A stretch of 64,000 nt of DNA from Candidatus Aenigmatarchaeota archaeon (GTDB taxonomy: Archaea > Aenigmatarchaeota > Aenigmatarchaeia > CG10238-14 > SCSR01). Under the pieces are notes generated by a model that was not told the origin of the DNA, made no database searches, and worked only from the letters and a program-made list of their open reading frames with translations. Both the position numbers and the translations under genes were made by a program. Of the stretch, positions 57,010-62,128 are shown piece after piece. The first letter of the stretch is position 1, and each line of letters opens with the position of its first letter. Where the stretch lies: contig JAUWZS010000002.1 in the NCBI GenBank assembly GCA_030615205.1, positions 286,476 through 350,475 of the forward strand, read 5' to 3'.

Positions 57010-57646
57010 CTCCAGCTTTTTCAGTTTTTATTTCCGTTTCTACAGCCTCCTTCTTTTCTATCTTTGCTGCTTTTTCTTTCTTTACTTCTTTCTTTTCTTC
57101 TTCCTTTATTTCCTCTTTGGGTTTCTCTGTTGGCTTTTCAACTGGTTTTTCTTCGGGTTTTTCCTTTTTCAGCGTTTCTTTTGGGGTTTCTTTAGGTGCT
57201 TCTTTCGGTGTTTCCTTTGGTTTCTCTTCTTTTTGGACTTGTTCCTCTTTCTTCTCTTTCTTTTCTTTTTTCGGTATCAGTTGCTCAAGAGGCTTTTCGC
57301 CTGCTTTAATAATTTTAGCATTAATCTGCATAATCGAATCGGATATTGTGTTGCCACGAACTGTTTTTCTCCTGCGCTGGCCTTTTAATCTTGGATGAAA
57401 TCCGGGTGGCGCTGCGAGCAACATTTTTTTGCGTCCGCTGCCTTTAAGCCCGGGATACATTGGAAATCCGTCTTTGTCTGTACCGCCAGTTATTTGCAGA
57501 GCATATCCCGCAAGATTGACCAAATCACCGTTAAATTCATCTCCGATTTTTTTGCCAACCAGCCCGACTGCCTTTGACTGGTCAACTTCAATCTGAAAGC
57601 TCTTCCTGCTCTTTGGATCGCTTATTACAACTTTGAATACTGCCAT
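56984..57646 (-). CDS. rps6e: Ribosomal protein S6e with long K/E-rich C-terminal tail
   Basis: MAVFKVVISDPKSRKSFQIEVDQSKAVGLVGKKIGDEFNGDLVNLAGYALQITGGTDKDGFPM. Confidence 0.9.
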   Translation of the reverse strand: MAVFKVVISDPKSRKSFQIEVDQSKAVGLVGKKIGDEFNGDLVNLAGYALQITGGTDKDGFPMYPGLKGSGRKKMLLAAPPGFHPRLKGQRRRKTVRGNTISDSIMQINAKIIKAGEKPLEQLIPKKEKKEKKEEQVQKEEKPKETPKEAPKETPKETLKKEKPEEKPVEKPTEKPKEEIKEEEKKEVKKEKAAKIEKKEAVETEIKTEKAGGGESKDEN

Positions 57647-57753
57647 TTTTCACTACCTCTCCTTTTTATCCACATAACAATTGAATCTTAAATTATACTT
57701 ATATTTTTAAATACTTCTTATAAAGAAAAAACAAAAATAAAAATAAGGTGTTT

Positions 57754-57795
57754 ATGTGGCAGAGATGGCTGGTAAAGACAAAGATTTCATTGTGA
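57754..57795 (+). promoter_or_regulatory. Candidate leader mini-ORF MWQRWLVKTKISL upstream of trpS
   Basis: AGGTG motif 3 nt upstream of ATG; two Trp codons in 13; ends 22-31 nt before the trpS start. Confidence 0.4.
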
Positions 57796-57816
57796 CTCTG
57801 GGGAGTAAGCGGTAAA

Positions 57817-58926
57817 GTGAAAAATATGAAAAAAGCAATAATAGACCCTTGGGGAACTGTGCTGATCGAAGACTATCAAAGGGCTATAAAAGAGTTTGGT
57901 ATAAGCCCGTTCGATAAAAAGATCTTGAAAAAACTCCCGAATCCGAACAGATTGATGAGAAGATTGGTTGTGTTTGGCCATCAGGATTTGGGTAGAATTG
58001 CGGATGCTATTAAAAATAAAAGCGATTTTGCAATACTAACAGGTATAATGCCTTCTGCGGAAAAACTCCATCTCGGAAACAGGATGGTTGTAGAAATGGT
58101 CCAATATTTCCAAGAGCAAGGTGGTGAAGCTTATGTCTTGGTTGCAGACTTGGAAGCATTGGCAACTAGAGATATTAGCCTAGAAGAAGCTGAAAGAAGA
58201 GCTATGAACTTCCACATCCCGGCTTATGTCGCACTTGGCTTGGATCCTAAAAAAACTCATTTTTATTTTCAGTCAAAGAATAAAATTGTAAGAGATCTTG
58301 CATATGAATTTTCAACAAAGCTAACCCTAAACGAATTCAGGGCCATATACGGCAATTTGGATGCTGGAAAAATAATGTCTGTTCTAACTCAAATCGCTGA
58401 TATTTTATATCCTCAAATTAAAAAACCAAGGCCTGTTGTTGTGCCTGTTGGCCTGGACCAATCGCCTCATATGAGAGCATGCAGGGACGTAGTGAGAAGA
58501 TATAAAAAATATAATTTCATACTCCCATCAGCAACTTACCATAAATTCACACCAAGTTTAGACGGGAACACGAAAATGAGTAAAAGCAAACCAAATAGTT
58601 ATATATCGATACCAGAAGATCCTGAGATTGCTGGGAAAAAGGTGTTAAACGCAGTGACAGGAGGCAGAAAAACAATAGAAGAACAGAAAAGACTTGGTGG
58701 TGAACCGGAAAAATGCATGATATTTGAAATCTACAAGCAGCATTTGATAGAGAATGACAAAGAACTGGATGAGATCTACAGACGATGCAAGTCTGGCGAA
58801 CTGCTCTGCGGGGAAGATAAAGCAAGAGCGTGCAAATTAATGAAAAAATTCATAGAAGATTTCAACAAAAAGTTCAAAAAAGCCAGAAGCAATGTTGATA
58901 AACTAAACATTATTTCACACTTCTGA
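57817..58926 (+). CDS. trpS: Tryptophanyl-tRNA synthetase
   Basis: TGIMPSAEKLHLGNRMVVEMV; PVGLDQSPHMRACRDVVRR; KMSKSKPNSYI. Confidence 0.95.
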   Translation: MKNMKKAIIDPWGTVLIEDYQRAIKEFGISPFDKKILKKLPNPNRLMRRLVVFGHQDLGRIADAIKNKSDFAILTGIMPSAEKLHLGNRMVVEMVQYFQEQGGEAYVLVADLEALATRDISLEEAERRAMNFHIPAYVALGLDPKKTHFYFQSKNKIVRDLAYEFSTKLTLNEFRAIYGNLDAGKIMSVLTQIADILYPQIKKPRPVVVPVGLDQSPHMRACRDVVRRYKKYNFILPSATYHKFTPSLDGNTKMSKSKPNSYISIPEDPEIAGKKVLNAVTGGRKTIEEQKRLGGEPEKCMIFEIYKQHLIENDKELDEIYRRCKSGELLCGEDKARACKLMKKFIEDFNKKFKKARSNVDKLNIISHF

Positions 58927-58933
58927 TGTTATC

Positions 58934-60244
58934 GTGAATGGCGAATCATATATGAGAAAAGGGAAGCGTATAGAATTGACCGAAGAGGGAAAAACATATT
59001 TGAAAAAAGGTTTGCCAGAGAGAAATCTTGTCAAACTTCTTAATAGTTCGCCTCAAAAATCTCTTTCAATAGAAAACGCGAGAAAAAAAGTAGGAAATTT
59101 CCCAATAGCCTTAAAGTGGGTTTTGGAAAAAGGATGGGTCGAAAAAAAAGCTGGCAAATTGACTTTGATAAAGCTCCCTAGGAAAACTGAAGAAGAAAAA
59201 GCTTTGAAAAATATTGAACAAGGAAAGGAAGTTGACGGAGAAATTTTGAAGATTTTGATTAGTAGGAACCTTGTTCTAAGAATTACTGAAACTTATATTA
59301 AAACTGAGGAAGCGATAAAAAAAGCTGGCAATGTTATCGGAGAATTGACTCACGATATTATCATCACAGGTTTGTGGAAAGGAAGGAAATTCAAGCCAGT
59401 AAATATCAAAGCTGTGAAAAAGTTTGATGAATTAAAAATAGCTCCTGGAAAAAGGCACCCCTATAATTATTTCCTGATGCAGGTCAGGAAGAAGATGGTG
59501 GAACTTGGATTCCAGGAAATGACCGGACCTATGATCGAAACTGAATTCTGGAACTTCGATGCTTTATATCAGCCACAAAACCATCCTGCAAGAGATTGGT
59601 CATCCACATATTCATTGAAACATCCAAAATATGGGAAGCTCCCCTCAAAGAAAATTGTCAATAATGTCAAAGCAGCTCATGAAAATGGGTGGAAGACTGG
59701 TTCAACTGGCTGGGGATACAAATGGGGTGAAAAAAAAGCTTCAAAACTAATGCCAAGAGCACATGACACTGCAATAACTCCAAGATATCTAGCAAAAGGG
59801 GTAAAAATACCAGGAAGATACTTCAACATGGTCAGATGCTTCAGACCAGATGTGATTGATCCTACGCATGGGGTTGAGTTCATTCAGACCGGGGGAATAG
59901 TTGTAGCAAAAGACATTGATTTTAGACACTTACTTGGATTGCTCAAACAGTTTGTAAATGTAATTGCCGGAGTTGAGGAAGTAAAGTTTTACACAGATTA
60001 TTATCCATTCACTGAACCATCAGTCCAAATATCTGGCAAGCACCCTGATTTGGGATGGGTTGAATTAGCAGGAGCTGGAATATTTAGAACCGAATTAACA
60101 GAACCTCTTGGAATTAAAGAGCCGGTAATTGCTTGGGGATTTGGTATAGACAGATTAGCTATGCATTCATTGAATATACGCGACATCCGATTTTTGTTCA
60201 GCAGGAAGTTGGAATGGTTAAGACAACAAAAGGTGGTGAGATAA
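58934..60244 (+). CDS. pheS: Phenylalanyl-tRNA synthetase alpha subunit
   Basis: KRHPYNYFLMQVRKKMVELGFQEMTGPMIETEFWNFDALYQPQNHPARD. Confidence 0.95.
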   Translation: MNGESYMRKGKRIELTEEGKTYLKKGLPERNLVKLLNSSPQKSLSIENARKKVGNFPIALKWVLEKGWVEKKAGKLTLIKLPRKTEEEKALKNIEQGKEVDGEILKILISRNLVLRITETYIKTEEAIKKAGNVIGELTHDIIITGLWKGRKFKPVNIKAVKKFDELKIAPGKRHPYNYFLMQVRKKMVELGFQEMTGPMIETEFWNFDALYQPQNHPARDWSSTYSLKHPKYGKLPSKKIVNNVKAAHENGWKTGSTGWGYKWGEKKASKLMPRAHDTAITPRYLAKGVKIPGRYFNMVRCFRPDVIDPTHGVEFIQTGGIVVAKDIDFRHLLGLLKQFVNVIAGVEEVKFYTDYYPFTEPSVQISGKHPDLGWVELAGAGIFRTELTEPLGIKEPVIAWGFGIDRLAMHSLNIRDIRFLFSRKLEWLRQQKVVR

Positions 60245-60478
60245 ATGAAAGAAATAAAATTTGATGAATTGTTAAAAATAGCAGAAGAATTTTACAAAAA
60301 CAAGACACCTTGGCATTTCCATATACTAACACCGAAATGCATTTTCAATAAAAACAGAAGTAAGTTCTGCATCATCTTAGAGAACGAAAATACTGGAGAG
60401 GTTTTTGTAACATTCTATGGAGAGAAACCGTTAAAGGATGGAGAAAAGTTGGAGAAATTGTTTTATGGGAGGGTGTGA
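60245..60478 (+). CDS. Small hypothetical protein lodged between pheS and pheT
   Basis: ATG directly abuts pheS stop; stop directly abuts pheT ATG; 77 aa. Confidence 0.75.
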   Translation: MKEIKFDELLKIAEEFYKNKTPWHFHILTPKCIFNKNRSKFCIILENENTGEVFVTFYGEKPLKDGEKLEKLFYGRV

Positions 60479-62128
60479 ATGCCGACAATTGAAGTATCAT
60501 ATTCAGATTTGTGTGAATTGATCGGAAAAGAAATCCCGATTGAGAAACTGAAACAGCACATACTTTTTGCCAAAGCAGAGATTGATGCAGTGAATGGGGA
60601 TTTACTAAAAATTGATTCAAAAGATACGAACAGGCCGGATCTATGGTCAGCAGAAGGGATCGCAAGAGAATTGAGAGGTAGATTGACAGATGATAAAGGA
60701 TTACCTGAATACAAGATTGAAAAATCAAATGTTATAGTAAAAGTTGATGAAAAAGTTTCTAAATTTAGGCCTTTAACTGTTTGTGCTGTTGCTAAAAATC
60801 TGAAGATGAATAAGACAAGTTTGTCGCAACTAATCCAATTGCAAGAGAAAGTCTCTGGAACTTTTGGTAGAGGGAGGAATGAAGTCGCAATTGGTGTATA
60901 TGATTTATCGAAGATTAAATCTCCAATAACATATACAACTGCTAAACTGGATAAGAAGTTTGTTCCGCTTGATTTTGAGGAAGAGCTGACAATAAAGGAA
61001 ATTTTAGAGAAACACCCTAAAGGCAAAGAGTTTGGTCATTTGGTTAAAGGATTCAAAGAGATTCCAATATTCATAGATTCTGCGGGAGAAGTGCTATCAA
61101 TACCACCTATAATCAACTCAAATCATACTGGAAAGGTTACAGAGGATACAAGAGAAGTATTCATTGAATGCAGTGGGTTTGATTTCAAATTCCTGATGCC
61201 TGCCTTGAATGTGATAGCCGCTGCTTTAATTGACAGGGGAGCGAAGGTCGAAAGTGTAAAAGTGGTTTATGGAAAAAAACCTATTCATACTCCAGACTTT
61301 ACTCCAAAGAAAACATCAGTAGACGTAGATTTTGTAAACAAGGTTTCTGGTTTAAACTTATCAGCAAAAGATGTAGCAAAGTTGCTAGAACAGGCGAGAT
61401 ATAAAACTAGCGTAAAGGGGAGGAAAATCGAACTGTTTTATCCTGCTTACAGACAGGATATAATGCATCAGAGAGATGTTGTGGAAGATGTGATAATTTC
61501 TTATGGCTACAACAAGATTGAACCTGAAATCATAAGTAAGAAGACAAAAGGAAGAATAAATGACTTGGAAATCTTCTGTGAAGGTATAGCTAAGAAGATG
61601 GTGAAACTTGGATTCCAGGAAATTCTTTCTTATACATTAACAAATAAAGATTTCCTTTTCAATAGAATGAATTTGAAAGAAGAGAAAATCGTAGAGATTG
61701 AGAATCCTATTTCTGTCAATTGGAATGTCTTTAGGAATTGGCTGCTTCCAAGTCTCATGGAATTCTTTTCACATAATCAGCATGTCAATTATCCACAAAA
61801 AATCTTTGAAATCGGGGATGTCATCTTGATTGATATGAAAAAAGAGACTAAGACCAAAGATGTAAGGAAGGTCTCTGCTGCGATTGCGGATTCGAGGATT
61901 AGTTATAGTGATCTAGCTTCTCTTCTTGATGCTTTGCTATCTAACCTGCATGTAAATTATGAACTAAAAAAATCAAAACATCCAAGTTTCATTGATGGTA
62001 GAGCTGTAGATGTGATAATGAATAATAAAAGAATTGGTTTTATTGGAGAGATTCACCCTATTGTTTTAAAGAATTGGAAATTGGAAATGCCTGTTGTTGC
62101 ATTCGAAATTAATTTAGATGAATTGTAA
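60479..62128 (+). CDS. pheT: Phenylalanyl-tRNA synthetase beta subunit
   Basis: MPTIEVSYSDLCELIGKEIPIEKLKQHILFAKAEID...DTNRPDLWSAEGIARELRG. Confidence 0.95.
   Translation: MPTIEVSYSDLCELIGKEIPIEKLKQHILFAKAEIDAVNGDLLKIDSKDTNRPDLWSAEGIARELRGRLTDDKGLPEYKIEKSNVIVKVDEKVSKFRPLTVCAVAKNLKMNKTSLSQLIQLQEKVSGTFGRGRNEVAIGVYDLSKIKSPITYTTAKLDKKFVPLDFEEELTIKEILEKHPKGKEFGHLVKGFKEIPIFIDSAGEVLSIPPIINSNHTGKVTEDTREVFIECSGFDFKFLMPALNVIAAALIDRGAKVESVKVVYGKKPIHTPDFTPKKTSVDVDFVNKVSGLNLSAKDVAKLLEQARYKTSVKGRKIELFYPAYRQDIMHQRDVVEDVIISYGYNKIEPEIISKKTKGRINDLEIFCEGIAKKMVKLGFQEILSYTLTNKDFLFNRMNLKEEKIVEIENPISVNWNVFRNWLLPSLMEFFSHNQHVNYPQKIFEIGDVILIDMKKETKTKDVRKVSAAIADSRISYSDLASLLDALLSNLHVNYELKKSKHPSFIDGRAVDVIMNNKRIGFIGEIHPIVLKNWKLEMPVVAFEINLDEL

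Follow-up and report, generated by a model that had tools for sequence, protein, structure and literature searches.

Short ORFs with cognate codons ahead of trpS, ileS and valS: probable leader peptides in an archaeal lineage

The presence of two tryptophan codons in a mini-ORF located immediately upstream of trpS, the gene encoding tryptophanyl-tRNA synthetase (TrpRS), raises the question of whether an archaeon may control a synthetase gene by means of a leader peptide. Control by leader peptides on which the ribosome stalls at specific codons is a textbook bacterial mechanism; no archaeal case was found in the one open-access library searched, where reviews on archaeal translation initiation and on the coupling of transcription and translation make no mention of it. 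The mini-ORF lies in the 64-kb stretch of DNA analysed here (the window), which belongs to a draft genome of 1.17 Mb for which close relatives are few. From the comparison with related genomes described below, it is probable that the mini-ORF is a trpS leader peptide, and that this lineage sets near-leaderless ORFs with cognate codons before trpS, ileS and valS. The features of the locus are the following.

57706-57713, + strand: candidate TATA-like box TTTAAATA, matching TTTAWATA at 8 of 8 positions, 48 nt from ATG 57754 and 42 nt from GTG 57748
57717-57724, + strand: candidate TATA-like box CTTATAAA, preferred, 37 nt ahead of ATG 57754
57746-57750, + strand: AGGTG, Shine-Dalgarno-like, where the transcript is predicted to begin
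57748-57795, + strand: putative leader ORF, GTG version, MFMWQRWLVKTKISL and stop, Trp at codons 4 and 7
57754-57795, + strand: putative leader ORF, ATG version, MWQRWLVKTKISL and stop, Trp at codons 2 and 5
57757-57759, + strand: first Trp codon, TGG
57766-57768, + strand: second Trp codon, TGG, after Arg AGA (R-W, to be compared with the R-I and R-V of the ileS and valS leaders)
57769-57825, + strand: remaining leader ORF and spacer to trpS, which may hold a diverged copy of AGATTTTATTTACTTCT
57817-58926, + strand: trpS, start at GTG 57817 or ATG 57826
58934-60244, + strand: pheS (NCBIfam NF003210 and TIGR00471 pheT_arch are cited for the pheS-pheT block, 58934-62128)
60245-60478, + strand: 77-aa ORF between pheS and pheT
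60479-62128, + strand: pheT, archaeal type (NCBIfam TIGR00471 pheT_arch)

Inspection of the sequence recovers the mini-ORF (ATG at 57754, TGA at 57793-57795), its two TGG codons, the AGGTG motif and the two alternative trpS starts exactly as the preliminary description gave them, and the NCBIfam models TIGR00233 and NF008926, both above cut-off, confirm that the downstream gene is trpS. The genes for aIF2 gamma, S6e and archaeal PheT are also recognised by NCBIfam and, with TrpRS, mark the genome as archaeal; the S6e gene is divergent from trpS, and trpS, pheS, the 77-aa ORF and pheT would, judging by their spacing, likely be co-transcribed as one operon. An in-frame GTG at 57748 extends the mini-ORF upstream. 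The ATG version begins at the position of the ATG of the MFQW, MLQW and MSQW leaders of relatives, and a start at the GTG would make the second Trp codon 7, the position of the cognate codon in many relatives; GTG starts also suit ileS leaders in the window's genome and in other genomes. The stop of the mini-ORF lies about 21-30 nt from the trpS start, the spacer being short and not U-rich (T 0.22), and a visual alignment weakly suggests that AGATTTCATTGTGACTCT at 57782 may be a diverged form of the element AGATTTTATTTACTTCT present in relatives. On its own, the window ORF is weak and decides nothing, since 5000 dinucleotide shuffles of the window intergenic region yield an ATG mini-ORF containing one or more TGG codons in 15.5% of cases and two or more in 1.2%. 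An overlapping ORF at 57765-57815 (MAGKDKDFIVTLGSKR and stop), which stops one base ahead of the trpS GTG start, was rejected as the true leader: it lacks Trp, and no counterpart was seen in relatives. A repeat or transferred element was also rejected, no second copy having been found in the genome and none in plasmids, and ARAGORN found no tRNA near the mini-ORF.

The DNA upstream of trpS was then read in the available draft genomes, 36 of the same order and 156 of the phylum. In six genomes of one family (f1) the sequence ATG-[TTC, CTC or TCC]-CAA-TGG is found about 75-90 nt upstream of trpS, giving the putative leaders MFQWITL, MFQWIV, MLQWFAFQ, MSQWCTFN, MSQWFTFQ and MLQWNALQ. Trp leaders with differing sequences are spread over five families, the others being MEWDRLQFI and MEWDILQFA (f7), MVYQWISMQ and MPYQWIQRF (f15), MPYQWAGKD (f29), and MPRNWEKMR and MPSNWMKGF... 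(f30). The leaders of f29 and f30 (L182, L181, L183) are divergent from a conserved SAIEVYxRETNG gene, whose product may be an MPN/JAB-type protein. When the 17-nt motif GTGRTATGYYCCAATGG was searched in the 156 phylum genomes with up to two mismatches, exact matches occurred only at five trpS loci, and single-mismatch matches at a sixth trpS locus and elsewhere in G123, the last of which looks like chance. Moreover, of the 61 codons tested at positions 2-6 of ATG mini-ORFs in the DNA upstream of 134 trpS genes, TGG shows the strongest enrichment, being found at 23 of the 134 loci against 5.6 ± 2.2 in shuffles (none of 200 shuffles reaches 23 and none exceeds 14, in counts that ignore kinship), and the runner-up is enriched 2.25-fold; about 14 of the 23 loci are convincing leaders. 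At the level of the peptide, W is the only clearly enriched residue among the 20, and [RQN]-W occurs 12 times in the short ORFs upstream of trpS, against 2.6 expected. According to the preliminary description the proposal would fall if relatives lacked any Trp-containing leader; these loci show that relatives do have them. Some features count against the leader reading: most trpS genes of the phylum have no such leader, the Trp leaders are built on CAA-TGG and similar sequences and not on the GGTG-N5-YGG geometry of the ileS and valS leaders, and in G013 (L003) a leader-like ORF without Trp (MLLACSYFCLFFYQHKF) occupies the same locus. The G013 sequence looks as though the CCAATGG block had been deleted.

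Other synthetase genes were first inspected in seven genomes, in which leuS, metS, thrS, serS, proS and glyS showed no such leader. Before ileS, by contrast, the putative leaders MSGLRIAA, MSGLRIAC, MSDSRIAC and MSGTRIVE were found, and before valS MSGGLRVAG, MSGELRVLG and MKGECRVLH. In the window's own genome the ileS leader is GTG-AAA-GGC-GAT-GCA-CGG-ATC-TTT-GCA-TAA (G000:C29:375979-376008, locus L275), encoding MKGDARIFA from a GTG start, 145 nt before ileS and with the TATA box TTTAAATA 39 nt upstream; downstream of it lies a T-rich stretch with CTCAG-TT-CTGAG. The collection of ileS and valS across the order served as a test of the pattern seen in the seven genomes, and new leaders of the predicted make appeared: MSGCRIV, VGVDRIVF, VGVDRIGI, VGANRIAS, VGVCRIAF, VGVSRIISF, METEGVYRIV and MRSEGACRIF before ileS, and MGESRVLQY, MNGERWVQF and MHGESWVQN before valS. 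In codons 4-8 of short ORFs, R-I is found at 9 of 24 ileS genes (1.3 in shuffles), where R-V is found at none, and R-V at 5 of 28 valS genes (0.9 in shuffles); none of 300 shuffles reaches either count, in sets that include the discovery genomes. At the nucleotide level, the codon that follows the motif GTG-N5-YGG is Ile in 15 of 19 ileS matches, nine of the 15 being new, and Val in 6 of 7 valS matches, two of which (G034 and G017) are not independent tests, the TGG form of YGG having been added after they were viewed. Cognate codons are therefore well above shuffles and gene-specific at trpS, ileS and valS, and chance as the source of the leader family was rejected by the shuffles and the cross-gene controls.

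The behaviour of these ORFs with respect to the reading frame is a further piece of evidence. Among the cognate GTG-N5-YGG matches, a stop is present within four codons of the cognate codon in its own frame in 20 of 21 cases, against 1 of 42 for the other two frames. The spacing of the cognate codon from the start and from the stop differs solely by whole codons, the specifier being codon 6 or 7, and each of the three stop codons is represented. Synonymous variation is seen inside the leaders (GCT/GCC/GCA, GTC/GTA, TTA/CTA, TGC/TGT), and the Ser codon is AGT in ileS leaders and TCT in valS leaders. This pattern of frame, stop and synonymous change is that of reading frames under selection, frame and synonymous change being sequence signatures of translation. 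Directly ahead of the cognate codon of the ileS and valS leaders, CGG or TGG is nearly invariant, with GTG five bases upstream (L275-L315); CGG is a rare Arg codon, used twice in the 1769 codons of four window genes. This nucleotide conservation of CGG, and that of CCAATGG, goes beyond the needs of a peptide and counts against the leader-peptide reading, as does the finding that most leaders hold a single cognate codon, with two Trp in the window leader and no run of the cognate codon, so that the stall would be weaker than on bacterial runs. GGTG is the Shine-Dalgarno core in these genomes, its spacing to the start of real genes peaking at 5 nt (12 of 28), and in most relatives GTG or GGTG is found at the leader start or directly before it. 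A mixed MAFFT alignment of the trpS, ileS and valS leaders failed to line up the specifier codons, and no model was built from it.

The position of the ORFs relative to the predicted promoters is also kept. A TATA-like box lies exactly 37 nt ahead of the ATG of the trpS leader in G002, G004, G005, G006, G008, G067 and G111, as for the preferred box in the window, and 37-41 nt ahead in most other trpS leaders, G055 having no clear TATA box upstream of its trpS leader; over all leaders, the predicted box lies 28-41 nt ahead of the start in most cases. The interval between the box and the ORF is kept in length and is not conserved in sequence. Archaeal TATA boxes sit about 25-30 nt ahead of the transcription start, so the spacing observed would place the start of the leader ORFs no more than a few bases from the predicted 5' end, and these leaders are thus predicted to be near-leaderless. 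In the window the boxes predict a transcription start at about 57737-57748, and not downstream of 57754, where, according to the preliminary description, it would have spoken against the mini-ORF. Taken with the codon data, the comparison shows conserved, cognate, in-frame ORFs close to predicted promoters.

A search for RNA structure gave a negative picture. The window leader RNA folds as would be expected from shuffles (z -0.07), structure in 15 leaders does not exceed that of their shuffles (mean z +0.58), RNAalifold found no conserved hairpin in four genus relatives (-3.1 kcal/mol), and no terminator-like site was found in the window region; in these analyses, mutually exclusive terminator and antiterminator hairpins were not found. 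An Rfam search of 57500-58000 of the window gave no match, and no T-box, at E up to 5. The absence of conserved hairpins speaks against switching of the trpL type and against unmasking of the start. The part of the preliminary description that assigned the Trp leader to the control of trpS is well supported by the comparison, while the part in which stalling exposes the trpS ribosome-binding site has no support, there being no structure and no conserved hairpin. What is conserved downstream of the trpS and valS leaders of one genus (L006, L009, L010, L011, L195, L196) is a U-rich element, GATTTTATTTACTTCTATYCCTAAAT, better conserved than the flanking DNA; among the matches listed, those to its core in that genus with at most one mismatch all lie at trpS and valS genes. 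When the downstream element TTTACTYCTAWYYCTAAA was searched at three mismatches, noise prevailed, and the exact and one-mismatch matches were kept together with one inspected ileS locus.

The leader codon is, in addition, kept while the enzyme changes. The leaders of G039 and G037 are nearly alike and stand before TrpRS enzymes that are 70% and 32% identical, respectively, to that of the window; in G008 the leader and spacer are those of the genus, but its TrpRS shares only 35-37% identity with those of G004-G006; and in G007 the genus ileS leader, MSGLRIA, stands ahead of an IleRS of another type. Such persistence fits a leader that senses tRNA charging, and does not fit one that is bound by a particular synthetase. 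It bears on the proposal of autogenous control, in which TrpRS would bind YYCCAAU in its own leader by likeness to the anticodon loop of tRNA-Trp. E. coli ThrRS does bind thrS mRNA, and YYCCAAT, conserved in the six f1 leaders, presumably resembles the Y-U-CCA-A loop of the tRNA-Trp anticodon, but the sequence is absent from the window, G037, G039, G118 and G131, the leader persists when the TrpRS type changes, the ileS and valS leaders hold codons and not anticodons, and no stem closes the loop; we regard this explanation as extremely improbable. A DNA operator at the transcription start, bound by a tryptophan-responsive regulator, would account for the fixed TATA spacing and for the conserved DNA around the start, but would not be expected to show codon-position behaviour, a kept frame and cognate specificity across three genes, and is very improbable. 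Likewise quite unlikely, if somewhat less so, is a T-box-like RNA, in which uncharged tRNA would pair with an untranslated specifier triplet and the look of an ORF would be incidental. Such an RNA would suit the single specifier triplet in a conserved context (GTG-N5-YGG-Z; CCAA-TGG) and the cognate specificity; against it stand start and stop codons that stay in frame though their distances in codons vary, the synonymous changes, the three stop codons, the lack of an Rfam match for the window and of stable or conserved structure, and the fact that no second conserved tRNA-contact site was recognised.

Two further explanations were considered. The window ORF itself may be a chance ORF or a decayed relic: its sequence is unlike that of the neighbouring f1 leaders and its spacer is short and not U-rich, both of which count against the leader reading, shuffles give one Trp in 15% and two in 1.2% of cases, and the nearest TrpRS relative, G039 (70% identical), carries a different leader, MEWDRLQFI. 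The window ORF has, however, the 37-nt TATA-to-ATG distance of relatives, a divergent S6e gene as in f1, and two Trp codons, including an R-W pair, and its genome holds an intact ileS leader; a chance ORF or relic appears unlikely. A leader peptide with an output at the ribosome-binding site, where stalling would alter how accessible the synthetase start is or whether reinitiation occurs there, is a less remote but still doubtful alternative. The window leader stop is only about 21-30 nt from the trpS start, and archaeal termination-reinitiation operates at short distances (PMC12548453); no structure hides the synthetase start, though, the gap in relatives is about 40-115 nt, beyond the coupling range, and reinitiation after stalling would lower and not raise expression. 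Reinitiation is unlikely for most leaders, because coupling in Haloferax reporters is little or none beyond 30 nt (PMC12548453).

For the leader-peptide reading that we prefer, translation of the leaders, stalling on them and the direction of the response to low charging are inferred from the sequences, and the following course can be envisaged. The ribosome would initiate nearly at the 5' end of the transcript and soon reach a codon for the amino acid of the synthetase. Where charged tRNA is available it would pass, terminate a few codons on and depart; where charging is low it would wait at the cognate codon, and synthetase expression would rise. In the ileS and valS leaders, the internal GGUG five bases ahead of YGG may pair with the anti-Shine-Dalgarno sequence and hold the ribosome so that YGG occupies the P site and the A site presents the Ile or Val codon, acting as an internal brake. 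As for the output, the step may be transcription termination, protection of the mRNA or an effect at the ribosome-binding site; occlusion of factor-dependent termination, in the manner of tnaC and Rho, is favoured because no hairpins are conserved. The waiting ribosome would cover a U-rich region of FttA/aCPSF1-dependent termination between leader and gene, and a ribosome that finishes the leader would leave the RNA free for the termination factor. aCPSF1/FttA binds U-tracts and terminates archaeal transcription (PMC8716108, PMC8116511), and archaeal polarity has been attributed to FttA (PMC12548453). The window copy may work differently, because its gap is 21-30 nt and its spacer is not U-rich. 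That these leaders form an archaeal class of their own, defined by an internal GGUG hold on the anti-Shine-Dalgarno sequence, YGG in the P site and a ribosome blocking FttA termination in a hairpin-free U-rich spacer, is put forward as a tentative possibility.

Several known systems can be compared with this arrangement. Bacterial ribosome-mediated attenuators, which include candidates at Streptomyces trpS2 and leuS (PMC1262725), share with it a short upstream ORF with codons for the amino acid of the downstream gene, also at synthetase genes; the leaders described here differ in being archaeal, in lying near the predicted 5' end, in having one or two cognate codons and in lacking terminator and antiterminator hairpins, so that of the trpL type the cognate-codon upstream ORF is found and the hairpin pair is not. 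Mycobacteria have leaderless sORF attenuators that respond to cysteine (Canestrari et al., 2020, as cited in PMC9094748); as far as that citing paper describes them, these too are very short leaderless cognate-codon ORFs acting on downstream genes, but they are bacterial, contain cysteine runs and belong to cysteine-controlled operons. In the archaeal leaders, single Trp, Ile or Val codons, without a run, stand before synthetase genes, and the ileS and valS leaders have in addition a nearly invariant YGG codon and the internal GGUG. tnaC, when acting with Rho, resembles the mechanism proposed here in that a waiting ribosome on a short ORF blocks a factor-dependent terminator; tnaC senses free tryptophan through its nascent peptide, and the archaeal termination factor would be FttA/aCPSF1. 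T-box riboswitches likewise have one specifier codon that names the amino acid, as found here, and lie before synthetase genes, whereas our leaders are unstructured and have a frame that looks translated, and Rfam gave no T-box match for the window region. In contrast to tRNA mimicry of the thrS type, there is no closing stem, and the leader is kept with a different type of TrpRS or IleRS. Within Archaea, Ribo-seq of Methanosarcina mazei has revealed translated small ORFs in 5' UTRs (PMC11456600), in a paper that is silent, in its main text, on tRNA synthetases and on attenuation.

The cognate leaders suggest that these archaea sense amino-acid shortage through ribosome stalling, as bacteria do. 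If confirmed, they would mean that archaea couple the position of the ribosome to gene output, would offer a natural assay for archaeal transcription-translation coupling and for FttA, and would explain how synthetase levels are balanced in archaea with small genomes. The rule of GTG-N5-YGG, a cognate codon and then a near stop can be used to search any archaeal genome.

With regard to the synthetase genes themselves, three apparent replacements by distant homologues under an unchanged leader were noted (L075/L179; L006 vs L009-L011; L260). Furthermore, TrpRS is encoded twice in each of G008, G009 and G032, by full or nearly full genes that differ in type, and in G008 (L006, L017) the Trp leader is found at one of the two only.
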